A stretch of DNA of 64,000 bases from Bacteroidota bacterium (GTDB lineage: Bacteria > Bacteroidota > Bacteroidia > Chitinophagales > Saprospiraceae): contig JAKQLF010000277.1 in NCBI GenBank assembly GCA_029567325.1, positions 91,917 to 155,916 of the forward strand, in the 5' to 3' direction. Position numbers and translations under genes: made by a program. Positions 15,900 through 59,332 of the stretch are shown one piece after another. The stretch's first letter is position 1. Every line of letters starts with the position of its first letter. The notes beneath the pieces are model-generated. The model made no database searches, was not told the origin of the DNA, and was given only the letters and a program-made list of their open reading frames with translations.

Positions 15900-18800
15900 T
15901 TATTTCATCCAAATTGCCCCAACTCCAGCCTTCCATAACTTAGTATTTAAAGCCGGTATTTCTTGTTTTATGATTTGATTGGCTTGAGCCAAATAAGCCG
16001 TCCACCTTGTATTGTATTCCAAAAGTAAATCCTTCGAAGGCTGATTTACTTTTGGCAATTCGCTTTCCGTTTGATTGATCAAATAAAGATAATCTGCTGT
16101 AAATTTATTTGGAAAATTTTCAACGTCGTCATAGGCCTTGGACTTGCGTTGTACCATGTCTTCGTCCCACTTGAGCATTCTCTGGATCAAAGAATCACCC
16201 TCTGTTTTTAAAGATTGGTATTCGGACTCCTTCGGTAAGTGTTTAACCAAATCCTCGAGCTGTTTTCTTTTTGAATCCAATGAATTGACCAATATAATCA
16301 TCTCATTGTAATTGTCTTCCATGCCTTTCATAACAGTATGATATTCCTGGTAATCGGCTGGAGTTACCTCATATGTTGGGTTTGCTAATATTTCTGCTTT
16401 TGCAATTGCTGTATCTGACCCATTGGTGAGGACAATTTCATACATTCCTGGCGAGGCTTTGTGCCCTTGATAACTTCCTTCGATGTAGGCATCTTTCACT
16501 CCCAACATTGTTCCATGCCGCATATTCCACACAAATCTATTCAATCCTTTTTCTGTGCTTAAGACAGGTTCTGCATCTGGGCCTCCATCATATCTGGCGT
16601 ACAAACTATCTGATTTTGAACTAAAACTGTGTACAATAGCTCCTGACTGATCCTTGATGACCATTTGTATTTCCTCCCCTTCTTTCACCTCAGGCAAGTG
16701 ATAATAAATGACTAAACCTGAGGCTGCATTGACACCATTTGTGCCAACTATGCCCGTAAAGCTTGCGTCCATATCGTCCATACTGCTGGAACTATTGGTC
16801 AAGTAATTTGAAGAGGGCGGTAAAATGGATAATTGCTTTTCACCTTTTTGATAATTTTGCACCACATGCAAATCATCTAAAATCCAGAAAGACCTTCCCG
16901 ATGTGGCTGCTATCAAATTACCTTGATGTACCCTTAAATCTGTAATAGGCGTGACTGGCAAATTGAGTTGAAAAGGCAACCAATTCAATCCTCCATCTCT
17001 GGAAATAAACAATCCTGATTCTGTGCCCGCGTACAGTAAATCCTTAACTTTGTCATCCGCTCTCACCACTCTGGTGAATGCACCGTCTGGAATGCCTTTG
17101 TTGATGGCAGTCCACGTCTTTCCATAATCTGTTGTTTTGTATAAACCCGGCCGATGATCATTGAATTTATATCTGGTCGTAGCAATATATGCAGTTGCTT
17201 TATCGAAAGGTGAAACCTCAATAGCATTGATGAGGCATTCTTGTAATCCTTTGGGAGTAACATTTACCCAAGTCTTACAAGCATCTTTCGTGAGGTAAAC
17301 CAGACCATCATCACTTCCTGTATAAATGACTCCAGACTCCAATGGAGACTCTATGATATAAGCCAAAGTTCCATAATTTTCAGCCCCAACAGCTTCATTG
17401 GTGTAAGGAACTCCAGGCCGACCTTGTTTTTCTTTTTCATTTCTGGTGAGGTCGGGCGAAACTTCTTCCCAAGTGACACCTAAGTCCTTTGTCCTCAATA
17501 AAAGTTGTGATCCGTGATAATAAGTATTGCCTTCATGTTTACTGAAAATGATGGGCGCATTCCAATTAAATCGGTATTTCATGTCCTTTGCATCTTTTCC
17601 CAAATATTGGATGGGAGCGGCCATGACGTTTCTGCTGGCTTTGTTTTTGGTGTCCAATACTTCAATCGTTCCTTGGTAACTGCCCCCTAAAACAAATCTT
17701 GGATCATCTGGATCAAAAGCTAAAAATGCGCTTTCTCCACCCGCTGATCTTGTCCAATCATTGGTGGTGATGCTACGTCCACTGATGTTTCTGCTGGCTA
17801 TTTTTACAGAAGTATTGTCTTGTTGACCCGCGTAGATATTGTATGGAAATTGATTATCCACATTGATGCGGTAAAATTGTGCCGTTGGATAAATCATCTG
17901 ACTTGACCAAGACTTTCCATCATTAAATGTCACTGCTGCTCCCCCATCGTCGGCCACGATCCTGTTGTCTGAATCATTTGGATTGATCCACAAATCGTGG
18001 TAGTCACCGTGGGTATTGGAAATGTCTTCCCAGGTGACTCCGCCATCAATGGACTTGAGGGCAGGAGCACTCAATACATAAAGGATATTTTCATTGTTTG
18101 GATCTGGGAATAATTCAATGTAGTACCAAGCTCTTTGAATCAGTCTGTGGTCGCCAGAAACTTTAGACCATGACTTTCCTGCATCGAGCGATTGATACAA
18201 ACCACCAGCTTCTTTTTCCCAATCACTTTCTATCAAAGCATATACTTTTTCACTATTTGAAGGGCAAACGGCAATGGACATTTTACCCATTTCTTTGGGC
18301 AAACCCTCCGTCATTTTTTCCCAATGATCCCCGCCATCGGTTGACTTATACAATCCACTTCCTGGACCACCACTGATGACTTGCCATGGTTTACGACCGT
18401 GTTCCCACATGGCAGCGTACAAAATTCGCGGATTGTTGGCATCCATCGACAATTCAACTGCACCCGTGTTTTCATCTACGAATAGGATTTTTTTCCAAGT
18501 AAGGCCACCATCCATTGTTTTAAATACCCCTCGATCTGGATTCTTGCCATACAAAGCACCTTGTGCAGCCACATAAGTTACGTCCGGATTTTGCGGATGA
18601 ATGATGATCCTGGAAATGTGTCTGGTATTTTCCAAACCCATGTGTTTCCACGTTTTCCCAGCGTCCGTACTCTTGTAAACACCATCACCTGAGTGCGTCA
18701 TAACTCCTCTGATTGCATGTTCTCCCATGCCTACGTAAACTACATTGGCATCTGAAGCTGCAACACTCACTGCTATCACCGTCCCGTACTTAAAAAAACC

Positions 18801-19064
18801 GTCGGATACATTATCCCAAGACAAAGCCATATCGGTTGATTTCCAAAGTCCACCACCGGTCGTACCCATGTAGTAAACTTTGGGATCACCAATGACGCCA
18901 CAAGCAGCCACAGATCGGCCACCCCTAAACGGCCCTATACATCGCCATTTTACAGGTTTTAAATAATTTTGAAATTCGTTTTGTATGGAATCTAATTTTG
19001 CTTGAGCGCTCAAAAGCGGTGCTAACAATAGAAATGCAAGCACAACAATCAATGGTTTGGACAT
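15900..19064 (-). CDS. secreted VPS10/BNR-repeat (sortilin-like propeller) protein
   Basis: 1054 aa; signal peptide; many 'S.DGG..W' BNR repeats; [35 protein letters not shown]. Confidence 0.88.
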
Positions 19065-19204: not shown

Positions 19205-19781
19205 CACCAAATAAATTTGATCATCCTTTGGTTTTTAACATCCAAGAGAAAGTTCGGTGGACTGCGAAATTTATTTCGCTGTTGCATAAGCACAATAGTT
19301 GAAAGAGACTAAAATATTGATTATGTGAGATTGCCTGCGACCAAATTAATTTGGTCATCCACTGGATTGAGAAAGTTCGGTGGCCTGCGAAATTTATTTC
19401 GCTGTTGCATAAGCATAAAGATTGAAAGAGACTAAGATATCGGAGCTGTGAGATTGCTTGCGACCAAATAAATTTGGTCATCCACTGGTTGAGAAAATTC
19501 GGTGGAGTGCGAAATTTATTTCGCTGTTGCATAAGCATAACGGTTGAAAGAGACTAATATTGATTATGTGAGATTGCCTGCGACCAAATAAATTTGGTCA
19601 TCCACTGGGTTGAGGAAATTCGGTGGACTGCGAAATTTATTTCGCTGTTACATAACCATAAAGATTGAAAGAGACTAAGATATCGGAGCTGTGAGATTGC
19701 TTGCGACCAAATAAATTTGGTCATCCACTGGGTTGAGGAAGTTCGGGGGACTGCGAAATTTATTTCGCTGTTGTTGCAAGC
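19205..19781. repeat. tandem array of ~120-123 bp units, each with two palindromes
   Basis: GCGAAATTTATTTCGC at 19264, 19387, 19509, 19630 and 19753; GACCAAAT(A/T)AATTTGGTC at 19339, 19462, 19582 and 19705, with a degenerate copy at 19205. Confidence 0.95.
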
Positions 19782-20251
19782 TTTATACTTTCAATAATTT
19801 AATCCAAAAGCCTAGAGAGGTATAGTGCAAAATGACTTTAAAAAAAGAAAAACACCAGACATTTAAGGTACTTTAATGCATATTCTATTTGACAATATAA
19901 AGGTGATGATCAAACTTTACGGCCATGCATTGAATCATATTTCTTATGCATCTTTTCTTTGAATTGCTCATTATCAAATTCCACTGATTCTCCACTTTGC
20001 TCCCCTATCACTAATACTTCATTTATTAATAGTAGTTCATCAAAAAGCTTTCCCGATATGATTGATTTAATTCTATCCATTTGATATTGTTTGAATAAAT
20101 TTATCATTTATTTAGTTAAACTTAAAATGCTTATTGATTTTATTCACTTTTGAGCACCATATATCTTAAATATGTAATGGTGAGTTATCATCACATCCAA
20201 CCCAAAACTTCCCCATTAAATATCTACCTTCGCCCCCCACAAACAAACACC

Positions 20252-20905
20252 ATGTCATCCGATTCAGACTCTCCAATTGCAAAAATAAGCACCTCATTGC
20301 CGGAATCGCCCATTATACCTAAAGAAGAGAAAATTCACCGCCATTTCATCACCCACAAGCCTTTTGGATTCATCACCCAGTTTGTCAATACCAATAAGCG
20401 CAAAAAAGGGGTGTTGGGCGAACTGTATGATTTTCCTGAAGGTACCATGGCTATTGGGCGATTGGATGTAGACTCAGAAGGACTGCTTTTGTTGACTACC
20501 GATGGTATGGTAAGTTTCACTATTTGTAGTCGGAAAATCGAAAAGGAATATTATGTCCAACTCGACGGTATTATCGATGAAGAGGCCATTCAGAAAATGC
20601 AAGCGGGCGTTGAAATAGGTATTGACGGCATCAAATATTTGACCAAACCATGTATTGCCAGGCGACTGGAGGAACCCCCTTGTTTTCCCCCTCGCATAAA
20701 AGCCATCAGAGGCGAACATCATGGACCAACAAGTTGGGCTTCAATTACTATTCGTGAAGGCAAGTACAAACAGGTACGCAAAATGACGGCTGCAGTTGGT
20801 TTCCCCACATTAAGGCTCATGCGGGTAAGGATTGGCAATATCCATCTAGGCGCACTCAAAGCCGGGGAAGTAATTGAAGTAGCTAAGTTCGACGTAGATC
20901 TTTAA
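20252..20905 (+). CDS. rluE: RsuA/RluE-family pseudouridine synthase
   Basis: 'GRLDVDSEGLLLLTTDG', 'KEYYVQLDG', 'EGKYKQVRKMTAAVGFPTLRLMRVRIG'. The ORF track starts at 20150; ATG at 20252 seems likelier. Confidence 0.8.
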   Translation: MSSDSDSPIAKISTSLPESPIIPKEEKIHRHFITHKPFGFITQFVNTNKRKKGVLGELYDFPEGTMAIGRLDVDSEGLLLLTTDGMVSFTICSRKIEKEYYVQLDGIIDEEAIQKMQAGVEIGIDGIKYLTKPCIARRLEEPPCFPPRIKAIRGEHHGPTSWASITIREGKYKQVRKMTAAVGFPTLRLMRVRIGNIHLGALKAGEVIEVAKFDVDL

Positions 20906-24314: not shown

Positions 24315-27300
24315 ATGAGACAACATTTATCTTTTGCATCTATCCTATTATTACTCTGCTATTTTTTACCCGCTTCCGCTCAGGTTTCGAATAAAACGCT
24401 GCAAGATTCCACTTTAGACTTAATCAGTTATCGAAACATTGGACCTTTCAGAGGAGGTCGTTCTTGCGCGGTGGCTGGTGTTCCTGGTAAGCCCAATCTT
24501 TTTTACTTTGGAGCGACTGGTGGTGGCGTCTGGCAAACTGAAAACGGAGGTCGTTCATGGCAAAACATCAGTGATGGTTATTTTGGTGGTTCGATTGGCG
24601 CCATTGCGGTGGCTCCTTCAGACGACAATGTGATTTACGTCGGGGGCGGTGAAAAAACCGTACGAGGTAATGTTTCTTTTGGATACGGCGTCTGGAAAAC
24701 TGAAGACAAAGGCAAAACCTGGAAGTCTTGTGGTCTGGATAAAAGCCGTCATATTGGGAGAATCAAAGTGCATCCCCAAAATGCTGACATTGTATTTGCA
24801 GCGGTCATGGGAGATTTATTTAAGGCTTCCGCCGAAAGGGGTATTTATAAATCCATCGACGGTGGCAAGACTTGGAACAAAGTTTTATTTGTCAATGACC
24901 GAGCTGGTTTTGTTGACTTGGTCATTGATCCAAATAATCACCGTATTCTTTATGCAACCTCCTGGCGAGTAACCAGATCTCCCTACGATCTTTCTTCAGG
25001 TGGAGAAGGTTCTGCCTTGTGGAAAAGTACAGATGGTGGCAATACTTGGCAAAATATTTCGAGCAATGAAGGCCTACCTTCTGGTGTTTGGGGCATCAGT
25101 GCTGTTGCAGTTTCTTACCAGTCTAGCGACAAGCTTTGGGCTTTGATAGAAAATGAAAACGGTGGTGTTTATCAATCACTCGACGCTGGAAAAACTTGGA
25201 AAAAAGTCAATGAAGATCGGTCTTTGCGACAAAGGGCTTGGTATTATACCCGCATTTATGCCGATACCAAAGACAATGAAGTGGTTTATGTTTTGAATGT
25301 TTCTTACCATAAATCCGACGACGGTGGCAAAACTTTTAAATCAGCCTATGCTGAACACAGCGATCATCACGATTTGTGGATAGCTCCAGAAGACCCAAAC
25401 CGCATGATCATTGCCGATGACGGGGGAGCTCAAGTGACCTATGATGGGGGTGAAACCTGGTCTACTTACCACAATCAACCCACTGGTCAGTTTTATAGAC
25501 TCACTACCGACAACCACTTTCCTTACCGAATTTATGCCGCCCAACAAGACAATTCAACCATCCGAATTCAACACAGAAGTTTGCAATCTGGAATTTCAGA
25601 AACTGATTGGCAAGAAACAGCTGGTGGCGAATCAGCACACATTGCAGTCGATCCACTGAATGATGAAATTGTTTATGGTGGCAGTTACGATGGATTTCTC
25701 ACTAGGGAAAACCACCAAACCAAAAGTGTCAGAGCAATCAATGTTTGGCCAGACAATCCCATGGGTTATGGCGCGGAAGGTATGAAATATCGTTTCCAAT
25801 GGAATTTCCCCATCTTTTTCTCTAAGCACAATCCAAAGAAGTTATACGCTGGCTCTCAACATCTACATGTTACGGTCGATGAAGGCCAAAACTGGGAATT
25901 AGTAAGTCCAGATTTAACACGCAATGAAGCTGAAAAATTGGTTTCTTCTGGTGGTCCTATCACAAAAGATAACACCAGTGTGGAGTATTATGCAACCATT
26001 TTTGCTGCAGATGAATCGCCACTCAAAGAAGGTTTGATTTGGGTAGGTTCTGATGATGGTCGTTTGCACATCACTCAGGATGGCGGCAAGGTTTGGACAG
26101 AGGTCAATGACTCAAAGATAATGCCTAAGTACCTGATGATCAACAGTGTAGAACCATCTTCTTTTGACCCAGCTGTTTGTTATGTTGCTGGTACTTCTTA
26201 TAAAGAGGGCGATTATAGTCCTTATCTTTTCAAAACAAAAGACTATGGCAAAACATGGAAAAAAATTGTTTCAGGAATTCCTGGGGAACACTTTACCAGA
26301 GTTGTCAGGGAGGATCCTTACAAAAAAGGAGTGCTTTATGCTGGCACAGAAACAGGCATGTATTTTTCAACTGATGATGGGGAAAGTTGGAAGTCTTTAC
26401 AGCTCAATTTGCCTATTGTTCCTATCACTGATCTCAAAATAAAAGAGGGCGGTCTCATTGTTGCCACCCAAGGCCGAGGTATTTGGATTTTAGATGATTT
26501 AAAAGTTTTACATCAGATAGTAGATATGCCAAAAGAAAAGGCTGTTCGACTATTTACGCCTAAAGATGTTTACAGAATGCCTGGTTCTAGTTCGCCTAAT
26601 GCAGCAAAAAATGGACAAGGTACCAACCATGCGGCTGGTTTGGTTTTACATTATATATTACCCACTTATGATGATAAAAAAGATACAATTTCCATTACGA
26701 TTATGGGAAATGCGGGCGATACAATTATTTCCTATAGTAATAAAAGCAAGGAAAAATCTACTACCCTTAAGCCTAAAAAAGGAGCCAATACTTTTAATTG
26801 GAACATGCGCTATCCCGATGCCAAATCATTTGATGGTATGATCCTTTGGTGGTCCGACCTTTCTGGTCCGCTTGCCGTCCCTGGTGAGTACAAAGCTTCA
26901 TTAAAGGTCAATAACAACACCTTATCCACTCCATTCAAAATTTTAAAAAGTCCAGCGAGTGAAGGTGATGAAGCCAGCATGGGCGCCCAATTCAAGTTTG
27001 TAAAAAGTATTGACGACAAAATCAATGAAGCACATCAAGCCATCATTGACATCAGAAGTTTACAAAAAAGTATCAAGCTATATGAAAAGGAACTCAAGGT
27101 CGATTCTCTCAAAATTTGGTCCGACTCTATAGGAAACATGGCTTCTATCATCGAGAAAGAACTTTACCAAACCCAAAATAAGTCCAATCAAGATCCATTG
27201 AATTATCCAATAAAACTGACAAATAAACTGGCTCACCTCAATGCGCTAAGTCAAATGGGCACTCAAGATTTTGGACCAACTACTTCCATGGTTGCTGTAC

Positions 27301-27431
27301 GGGATCAACTTGTTGCGGCTATCGATAAGCAGTTGACTGATTGGCGTGCCATCCACTCTTCTTTGATTCCAATGTTGAATGATTTGATGCGGAAATCGAA
27401 GATTGATTATATTCAAATTGGAAAAAATTGA
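24315..27431 (+). CDS. secreted VPS10/BNR-repeat protein, paralogue of 15900-19064
   Basis: 1038 aa; same architecture ([41 protein letters not shown]); signal peptide. Confidence 0.9.
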   Translation: MRQHLSFASILLLLCYFLPASAQVSNKTLQDSTLDLISYRNIGPFRGGRSCAVAGVPGKPNLFYFGATGGGVWQTENGGRSWQNISDGYFGGSIGAIAVAPSDDNVIYVGGGEKTVRGNVSFGYGVWKTEDKGKTWKSCGLDKSRHIGRIKVHPQNADIVFAAVMGDLFKASAERGIYKSIDGGKTWNKVLFVNDRAGFVDLVIDPNNHRILYATSWRVTRSPYDLSSGGEGSALWKSTDGGNTWQNISSNEGLPSGVWGISAVAVSYQSSDKLWALIENENGGVYQSLDAGKTWKKVNEDRSLRQRAWYYTRIYADTKDNEVVYVLNVSYHKSDDGGKTFKSAYAEHSDHHDLWIAPEDPNRMIIADDGGAQVTYDGGETWSTYHNQPTGQFYRLTTDNHFPYRIYAAQQDNSTIRIQHRSLQSGISETDWQETAGGESAHIAVDPLNDEIVYGGSYDGFLTRENHQTKSVRAINVWPDNPMGYGAEGMKYRFQWNFPIFFSKHNPKKLYAGSQHLHVTVDEGQNWELVSPDLTRNEAEKLVSSGGPITKDNTSVEYYATIFAADESPLKEGLIWVGSDDGRLHITQDGGKVWTEVNDSKIMPKYLMINSVEPSSFDPAVCYVAGTSYKEGDYSPYLFKTKDYGKTWKKIVSGIPGEHFTRVVREDPYKKGVLYAGTETGMYFSTDDGESWKSLQLNLPIVPITDLKIKEGGLIVATQGRGIWILDDLKVLHQIVDMPKEKAVRLFTPKDVYRMPGSSSPNAAKNGQGTNHAAGLVLHYILPTYDDKKDTISITIMGNAGDTIISYSNKSKEKSTTLKPKKGANTFNWNMRYPDAKSFDGMILWWSDLSGPLAVPGEYKASLKVNNNTLSTPFKILKSPASEGDEASMGAQFKFVKSIDDKINEAHQAIIDIRSLQKSIKLYEKELKVDSLKIWSDSIGNMASIIEKELYQTQNKSNQDPLNYPIKLTNKLAHLNALSQMGTQDFGPTTSMVAVRDQLVAAIDKQLTDWRAIHSSLIPMLNDLMRKSKIDYIQIGKN

Positions 27432-27444
27432 TTTTGTGTTATGT

Positions 27445-27554
27445 GAAATGTGAAGTGTTTTTTGTAAATAGTTAATGGTGAATGGTGAATGGTGAATGGT
27501 GAATGGTGAATGGTGTGAAATGTAAAATGTTTTTTGTAAATAGTAAATAGTTAA
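27445..27554. repeat. low-complexity 7-bp tandem repeats with flanking direct repeats
   Basis: (GGTGAAT)5 at 27477-27511, flanked by GAAATGTGAAGTGTTTTTTGTAAATAG and GAAATGTAAAATGTTTTTTGTAAATAG. Confidence 0.9.
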
Positions 27555-27611: not shown

Positions 27612-27727
27612 TATTGCATTTTTGCCTAGTGCATTTTTGCCCTAGTGCATTTTTGCTTTATTGCATTTTTGCCTATTGCCTTTTTGCTTTATTGCATTTT
27701 TGCTTTATTGCATTTTTGCCCTATTGG
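27612..27727. repeat. 7 x 15-16 bp tandem repeat (TGCATTTTTGCYYTAT)
   Basis: TGC(A/C)TTTTTGC cores start at 27615, 27630, 27646, 27662, 27677, 27693 and 27709. Confidence 0.9.
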
Positions 27728-51420: not shown

Positions 51421-51566
51421 ACTTCACATTTCACATTTCACATTTCACATTTCACATCTTACATTTCACATCTTACATTTCACATTTCACATTCACATTC
51501 ACATTCACCATTTACTATTCACTATTTACTATTCACTATTTACTATTCACTATTCACTATTTACAA
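51421..51566. repeat. 7-bp low-complexity repeats (TTTCACA / ATTCACT / TTTACT families)
   Basis: Runs of CATTTCA then TATTCAC/TATTTAC; reverse complement shares TTTTTGTAAATAGT with the 27.5 kb array. Confidence 0.9.
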
Positions 51567-55524: not shown

Positions 55525-55900
55525 TGCGAAATTTCTGTACCAATCCTGGTAATCCTTGAGCAACAAAAAGTCAGAGAAATTTCTGTGCCCATCTGTGTAA
55601 TCTGTGAGCACCAAAATCTATGGATTTTTTGTGCAAATCCGTGTAATCTGTAAGCACTAAAATCTGGGGAATTTCTGTGCAAATCTGGGGAAATCTGTGA
55701 GCGATCAAATGTGCACAAATCCGTGGATTCCACCAACTTTATTGATTGATGATTTAACATATTCAATCAGTCGTAGAATCGAACTAAAATTTAAAGATCG
55801 AATATGCAACACATTCGATCTTTGCACATGTCAACCTATAAATAGCCCTCAAATCTGTGAAATTTCTGTGCCAATCTGTGTAATCAGTGAGCACCAAAAC
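55525..55900. repeat. ~45-50 bp degenerate repeats (AAATTTCTGTGCCAATCTGTGTAATCTGTGAGCACCAAAATCT)
   Basis: About six diverged copies, beginning near 55529, 55577, 55624, 55670, 55709 and 55858. Confidence 0.85.
55793..55823. other. 11-bp perfect inverted repeat with 9-nt loop inside the repeat region
   Basis: AAAGATCGAAT (55793-55803) / ATTCGATCTTT (55813-55823). Confidence 0.8.
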
Positions 55901-57502: not shown

Positions 57503-59332
57503 AGTTTTATAAGTTTTTGGTTCATTTTTGTTGTTTTTTCATACACCAGATACGTTCCATTTTTTAACATATCTCCATCAATTTGAGCAAATCTGTTTTC
57601 ATATTTTATATCCATAACTAATGACCCATTTAATGAGTAAATTTGTAAATTTCCTCTTTCTGGTGCAGATTGCGGTACTCTAATATAAATTTGTTCTTGA
57701 TCATTTATTGGGTTAGGCATTAGTACCAATTCATCATCTAAGTTTGACTGAATTCCTTCTATAATAATTTTATAACTGCTACTATTATAGATTGAAATAC
57801 TTTTTGTAAGACTATTAAATCCTGGTGGAGGAATAAGTGTTGCAAAAATGTAATAATATGAATTTGGAGGTATTGAAGGGAAAGTAAATCCATAGCTACC
57901 TCCAGATGAAGTATTGGTGATGCTTTCAGTTTTAACTAGCGTATTTGGATACGGATATGTACTTGTGTACCAATTTAAAGTACAAGGATATTGGTCTACA
58001 TAAACATATCCAATAACATTTATAAAGGAACCAGGGAAGCTTGATGAAGGTGCTTCCAAAACAACATCATATGAATTTATCCATGCTGACAAAGGGCAAA
58101 AACTTGTATTTATGTTGAAACTATTATCTCTATCTGCTGTTCCAGTTGGTAATCCATTAAAATTTATATCAGGATTTGAAAATTGAAGAACACGTTGCCC
58201 AAACGGTATGGTGTTTGTAAGAAGTGTGCCCTGATTATTTCCTGCAAAAGCAAATTGATGACCTCTACCTGGAGGAGATGCATTATCAGTGAAATGTCGA
58301 GCATTAAAAAGATGGCCCACTTCATGAGCAAATGTAAAACCGGCATTTGTTGCAAAAGTAGTTTTGACTACAGCAACCGGTCTGGTTGGATTTGCAAATC
58401 CTGTTAGCCCAACAGAGCCAACAATCTCACCACCATTTACATTAAAAGTGTATTGATGGAGGAGAACCACAATGTCAGCCCGATTATTTACCCTTAAGTT
58501 TTGAATCCATGGATCTGTACTTAAATTATCGGCTGCCGTTGTAGGGTTATTGTTTATTGGTTGTTGAAGATTCGCTTGATTGAGAAATACTGGAGCCCCT
58601 CCTGTCACTCGTCCATTGATACCACTATTTACTAGAGAAGTATTTGTTTGAGATAAAGCAGTATATCCAAGCGCAGTAATGTTCGAAACGCTATTTTGCG
58701 CTGCATTTAAAGCTTGCTGGGTATATAAAATTAATATTTTGACACGACAATTTGCTGAATTTGGTCCTGTCCTATATGTTCCTTTTTCGCTATCTTTTCT
58801 TGGCAAAAGACCGTTTTCAGAGCTACATGTAGCAGCAGTTAATTTGGATGCATCATTTTTGTAAATTATACTACGATTCTTTGCAATAGCTTGAATAATA
58901 AACTGTTCACCATCTACCAAAGCGTAGCCGAAAATTCCAAATCCTTCATCCATGAGCTCTAGAATAGTCCCATCACCATGTCCATTTATTTTACCTTTAA
59001 AGTGCTTCTCCAAAAGAGGGCTATCATTCTCAATTTTTATTATCTTTTCCGCCTTTTTCCTTGTTGGCAATGGTATTTCAAAATCTTCTCCAAATTCATC
59101 AAATCCTTTGTTGAACTTTATCACAGCATATTCAGCTACCCACGGATCCTTTTTCATTTTAGAGATTTCCTCCTTGTCCTTCACGCCAAGTTCAGTTTCA
59201 GGAATAACCTCAATCTGAGCAACTAAAAATTGGCTCAACAACAAAAAGACAATTAATAATAATGTGTGTTGTGTTGTGTTGTGTTGTGTTGTGTTGTGTT
59301 GTGTTGTGTTGTGTTAAAAATTTCTTGCTCAT
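57499..59332 (-). CDS. secreted metzincin-type metalloprotease with T9SS C-terminal domain; 5' end contains a frame-breaking pentanucleotide repeat
   Basis: Zinc motif HEVGHLFNARH; C-term MPNPINDQEQIYIRV...LQIYSLNGSLVMDI...GTYLVYEKTTKMNQKLIKL. Track ORF begins at a TTG (59244); the ATG at 59332 would give MSKKFLTQHNTT...LLLIVFLLLSQFLVAQ if the repeat were 8 or 11 units. Confidence 0.85.
59266..59315. repeat. (GTGTT)10 pentanucleotide simple sequence repeat
   Basis: Ten perfect GTGTT units; AACAC on the coding strand. Confidence 0.98.

Follow-up and report, generated by a model that had tools for sequence, protein, structure and literature searches.

The tandem palindrome array found in a 64,000-nucleotide stretch of DNA (the window; C363:91917-155916) from a 5.8-Mb draft genome of 402 contigs is a REP/BIME element, a classification that we consider secure. 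At a probability of roughly 0.9, it represents a tandem cluster of REPINs (BIME units) belonging to a species-restricted REP family, which would have been mobilised by a RAYT and then amplified locally. The kind of element is a known one and the low-copy family is new, its notable features being two covarying stem types and the lack of a linked RAYT. An initial annotation, made from the letters of the window, had advanced a REP/BIME-like element as one of several candidates, and this proposal is now strongly supported by a common guide head, the inverted pairing of two REP types (Y and Z), about 75 dispersed copies, covariation of the stems and the existence of tandem clusters elsewhere in the genome.

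Both palindromes of the array start with the same 5' GTGGA head, each read on its own strand, followed by a short AT-rich hairpin. The type Y REP corresponds to GTGGACT-GCGAAATTTATTTCGC on the plus strand, and the type Z REP to GTGGAT-GACCAAATTTATTTGGTC on the minus strand. The two palindromes had already been described, and they are indeed present at the positions originally given, but their common GTGGA head had been missed, as had the fact that they are inverted copies of one element type: we are dealing with inverted variants of a single head-plus-hairpin element and not with independent motifs. In the window, the array contains five GCGAAAT-TT-ATTTCGC palindromes and four of the form GACCAAAT-NN-ATTTGGTC, one of them with a TA centre, plus a degenerate fifth. 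Published REPs carry GTAG or GTGG guides close to short hairpins (PMC6006769, PMC2817692). The GTGGA head is nearly invariant among our copies (at least 90% per column), which places a guide next to the palindrome as expected of a REP. Its GTGG sits 2-3 nt from the foot of the hairpin, at or one beyond the published rule of 0-2 nt (PMC6006769). An inverted Y-Z pair that has GTGGA at its outer ends constitutes a REPIN or BIME unit, and the array is composed of four such pairs of 104-106 bp, separated by 16-17 bp, with a half unit at each end (Table 1).

Table 1. Features of the REP/BIME array and its neighbouring genes (window positions)
Feature	Position	Strand or component REPs	Remarks
Whole REP/BIME tandem array	19205..19781	.	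Ten palindromes, orientation -+-+-+-+-+
Degenerate type-Z REP, left half unit	19205..19228	-	REP model match G000:C363:111119-111149(-), E 0.022
REPIN 1	19257..19362	Y REP 19257-19279(+), Z REP 19339-19362(-)	Linker form A, 106 bp
REPIN 2	19380..19485	Y REP 19380-19402(+), Z REP 19462-19485(-)	Linker form B, 106 bp
REPIN 3	19502..19605	Y REP 19502-19524(+), Z REP 19582-19605(-)	Linker form A, 104 bp
REPIN 4	19623..19728	Y REP 19623-19645(+), Z REP 19705-19728(-)	Linker form B, 106 bp
Fifth type-Y REP, right half unit	19746..19768	+	Head GGGGA
1054-aa sortilin/VPS10-BNR repeat protein gene	15900..19064	-	Pfam PF15902, E 7.5e-30; neighbour, outside the element
RNA pseudouridine synthase gene	20150..20905	+	Pfam PF00849, E 1.2e-13; neighbour, outside the element

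The repeat unit, estimated before at about 122 bp, measures 123, 122, 121 and 123 bp in its successive copies. Tandem Repeats Finder reported for positions 19246-19773 a period of 123 (88% match, score 830) and a higher-scoring period of 243 (93% match, score 935). The proposed 1-2-1-2 dimer is therefore real, since alternate units are the most alike (92% identity between the first and the third, 95% between the second and the fourth) in comparison with the other unit pairs (87-89%). The 105-aa ORF at 19221-19538(-) is, as suspected, a mere translation of the repeats, lacks any Pfam match and should not be annotated as a gene. The array does lie in a gene desert, the extent of which needs correction to 19065 to ~19910, where a 65-aa ORF of uncertain reality starts. 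As to the surroundings, two nearby paralogous sortilin/VPS10-BNR repeat proteins of ~1040 aa are encoded at 15900-19064 (-) and 24315-27431 (+), and in the synteny comparison the pseudouridine synthase was only ~40% identical to its best matches in the genus. Other short tandem repeats of the window map at 27467-27515, 27612-27726, 51423-51565, 55530-55702 and 59265-59315, and include heptamer runs of AATGGTG and TTCACAT/TTCACTA.

The same REPs occur at many other places of the genome. A pattern search allowing up to three mismatches gave 24 + 23 matches, where the reversed control had 2 + 1. We derived a covariance model from 58 copies, which match it by construction. Its E-values are rough; at E <= 0.05 it detected 75 sites, distributed over 14 contigs. 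Clustered at 250 bp, these sites form 23 clusters, of which nine are singlets, five are doublets and nine contain three or more REPs. Adjacent REPs face opposite directions in 47 of 52 pairs, with the alternating spacing of inverted pairs: REPIN spans are mostly 59-75 and 104-106 bp, the Y-Z pairs outside the array measuring 59-75 bp and one 150 bp. Further tandem arrays with periods of 98-100 bp were found on C326, on C190 (two) and on C57 (three Tandem Repeats Finder rows, two of them short), showing that tandem amplification is not confined to the locus described here. The C190 array also has, between its REPINs, repeated copies of a third type of hairpin, CGAAATCTATTTCG, which lacks the head (L063 3646-4166). 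Of the 24 sites checked, 23 are intergenic, that is, outside ORFs of at least 110 aa, and the remaining one falls within an ORF that does nothing but translate an array. The family is thus dispersed, mostly extragenic and multi-copy, with a copy number (75) on the low side. A single occurrence and palindromes mutating as fast as their linkers had been named beforehand as observations that would speak against the element, and this check, run in part in its own genome, revealed instead multiple copies with conserved stems.

Beyond this genome, the covariance model (E <= 0.001) gave no match in any of 119 other genomes of the family sample, and a pattern with two mismatches yielded, outside the source genome, only isolated matches at control level in a set of 61 genomes of relatives. 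An exact pattern scan of 84,980 species returned two single matches in unrelated bacterial phyla, about the chance expectation, although very near genomes may be missing from these scans. No match to the REP was found in viral contigs, phage records or plasmid records. Altogether, these comparisons point to a species-specific sequence, and the REP family appears so far restricted to one species.

A detailed view of the four full units shows that none of the 30 columns in the hairpin arms is variable, in comparison with 21 of the 93 columns elsewhere (Fisher p = 0.002), as anticipated by the suggestion that palindromes are more conserved than linkers within the array. Among 15 type-Y copies from different places, the information content was 1.56 bits per position in the head plus hairpin and 0.16-0.19 in the flanks, the conserved block comprising the head, the hairpin and a few bases at each side. 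Moreover, over 55 distinct copies 94.8% of the cells are paired, against 21-45% in slid controls, and the number of cells changed on both sides was 49, in comparison with 19.4 +/- 2.7 in shuffles, none of the 500 shuffles reaching 49. The covariation score was 0.377 in comparison with 0.130 in shuffles (0/500), indicating that the hairpins are maintained at the nucleic acid level. Most of these substitutions exchange GC<->CG in the third pair or AU<->CG in the innermost one. Since for the most part they set Y apart from Z, and subtypes of Y apart from each other, they correspond to few independent events. The covariation is less strong for that reason, although the conclusion that Y and Z are both hairpins still holds.

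The perfect conservation of the palindromes within the array, together with its position upstream of the sortilin-like gene (start at 19064), could also be expected from a dispersed operator, with sites for a dimeric regulator or a nucleoid or partition protein and the array as a high-affinity cluster. We regard this as improbable, since the compensating changes in two stem types keep the pairing and not the sequence, and a reader of double-stranded DNA would not require pairing. Moreover, the head is present on one side only, the REP places adjoin unrelated genes, and no trace of them appears in 119 other genomes of the family. The partition cluster originally listed among the candidate roles is a particular misfit, given the copies at many places and the two covarying stem types.

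Even less probable is an array of processed hairpin RNAs or terminators that stabilise or end the transcripts of neighbouring genes. Effects of REPs on mRNA stability and on termination are known (PMC6006769), as single-stranded DNA the array units give better folds than shuffles do (z -2.0 to -3.7), and one terminator-like site occurs at 19753. Terminator-like and promoter-like sites are, however, at the shuffled expectation, no Rfam family matches in the window, and the hairpins are short and AT-rich, so that this earlier candidate lacks direct support; such activity could be a secondary effect, and it would leave the dispersal and the alternation unexplained. Finally, a MITE or a tandem repeat unrelated to REP/RAYT, derived for instance from DDE transposon ends, would fit the GTGGA...TCCAC ends as short terminal inverted repeats and the lack of a linked RAYT, but is hardly credible when lone head-plus-hairpin copies (C107, C221, C303:46574) indicate that the unit can be one REP and when the combination of a GTGG guide and a covarying hairpin is that of the REP/IS200 design.

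The enzymes expected to move REPs are RAYTs (PMC2817692, PMC3116915). The search for such a transposase, recommended by the initial annotation, had a mixed outcome: the genome does carry RAYT-type genes, yet not one of them is linked to the REP family of the array. No linked cognate RAYT was obtained with Pfam Y1_Tnp, NCBIfam NF047646 or translated searches with 2.4-like and 2.6-like proteins, and no REPtron, a cognate RAYT flanked by the same REP, was seen in the 402-contig draft. Genes of the Y1 transposase type were found on C123, C7, C212, C214, C370, C368, C5 and C317, and are of the YIRNNP type where read. These YIRNNP-type genes resemble, by motifs compared by eye and with no tree, subclass 2.4 of PMC6006769, for which in-gene REP insertion has been described in the same work, and several have hairpins inside or beside them. 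One example is GTAGGGGCGAATGATCATTCGCCCCTAC, in or beside a RAYT-type gene on C212. Short Y1-type genes on C339, C115 and C130, of the YIKNQxxHH type in the two that were read, resemble by eye subclass 1.2. The GTGGA REP model gave no match on any contig listed with Y1-type RAYT genes. Another palindrome family (CCATGGATTNNAATCCATGG, CCCAGGATT...AATCCTGGG) lies near split Y1 transposase fragments at the contig ends of C67 and C224 (L028 483-828, L029 479-1017).

The nearest RAYT trace to any copy of the family is on C269, which carries a REP cluster ~24 kb from a deletion remnant of a 2.6-like RAYT (IHYNP, assigned by eye). Three such remnants were found (C269:4068-4307, C132:9395-9508 and C372:14568-14678; L165, L201, L202), with the hairpin TTTTAAGTTTGCAACTTAAAA, unrelated to the REP of the array, on both sides, and they are possibly MITE-like derivatives. 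A relative of the same genus (G003) keeps an intact 2.6-like RAYT-like gene of 198 aa as a tandem duplicate (L199 2503-4754), beside which there are hairpin arrays of 91-bp period with a sequence different from the GTGGA REPs. A RAYT-linked tandem hairpin array thus occurs within the same genus.

For the REPIN cluster, the biochemistry of TnpA_REP offers a model of how a RAYT acts on a REP hairpin (PMC8266576). A Y1 (HUH) RAYT acting in trans would bind the single-stranded hairpin, reading GTGG as the guide, and would copy single REPINs into other intergenic sites in the form of single-stranded hairpin DNA. One REPIN at the locus of the array would then have been amplified head-to-tail through slippage in host replication or recombination, and an A-B dimer duplicated as a block to give A-B-A-B. 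Local amplification of REPINs has been attributed to host replication and not to the RAYT (PMC8049555), which would explain the locus-specific linkers and periods as well as the block duplication. Against the REPIN interpretation, no RAYT gene adjoins any copy, and ~75 copies are fewer than the >100 typical of REP families (PMC2817692). A linked RAYT is usual but not strictly required, as E. coli genomes without a RAYT still hold REPINs (PMC8049555). The RAYT behind the family, which presumably mobilised it, was probably lost, is unassembled or is one of the unlinked RAYTs of the genome; given the draft state of the genome, the missing gene may be an assembly gap.

Should the RAYT be truly gone, the genome would offer a natural experiment on whether the persistence of REPINs serves themselves or their host. 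REP/BIME populations have been best studied in Proteobacteria, and here we find a clear covarying Y-Z family, without a linked transposase, in a lineage that its gene content marks as probably Bacteroidota. It is conceivable, though rather doubtful, that these REPINs form an orphan population in which two divergent, covarying stem types coexist and the RAYT has been lost while hairpins and tandem arrays were kept. Such a population would imply either that the DNA itself brings some advantage to the host or that a different RAYT, 2.6-like or 2.4-like, mobilises it in trans.

Among known systems, Pseudomonas fluorescens SBW25 has REPINs made, like ours, of two inverted REPs, which occur as singlets, doublets and ordered tandem clusters including the flanks, the largest with four REPINs and one REP (PMC3116915), and GTGG heads are also present in its REP sequences (PMC2817692). 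Unlike the SBW25 REPINs, which number from hundreds to >1000 copies, the family of the array has ~75 copies, AT-rich stems, two distinct stem types per REPIN and no RAYT adjoining any cluster. The Y-Z mosaics of E. coli BIMEs, with their y and z REPs (PMC2817692, PMC8266576), similarly alternate REP types in orientation, often in tandem, although E. coli REPs are longer, bulged and GTAG-headed, whereas those of the array are short, unbulged and GTGG-headed. The REP_Mb of Marinomonas (TnpA_REP group 3, PMC8266576) carries GTAG instead of GTGG and, unlike our family, is concentrated beside its own tnpA_REP gene, but shares with the REPs of the array, as a likeness of design only, a short perfect stem closed by a TTTA loop of 4 nt, with a tetranucleotide at ~2 nt from its foot.
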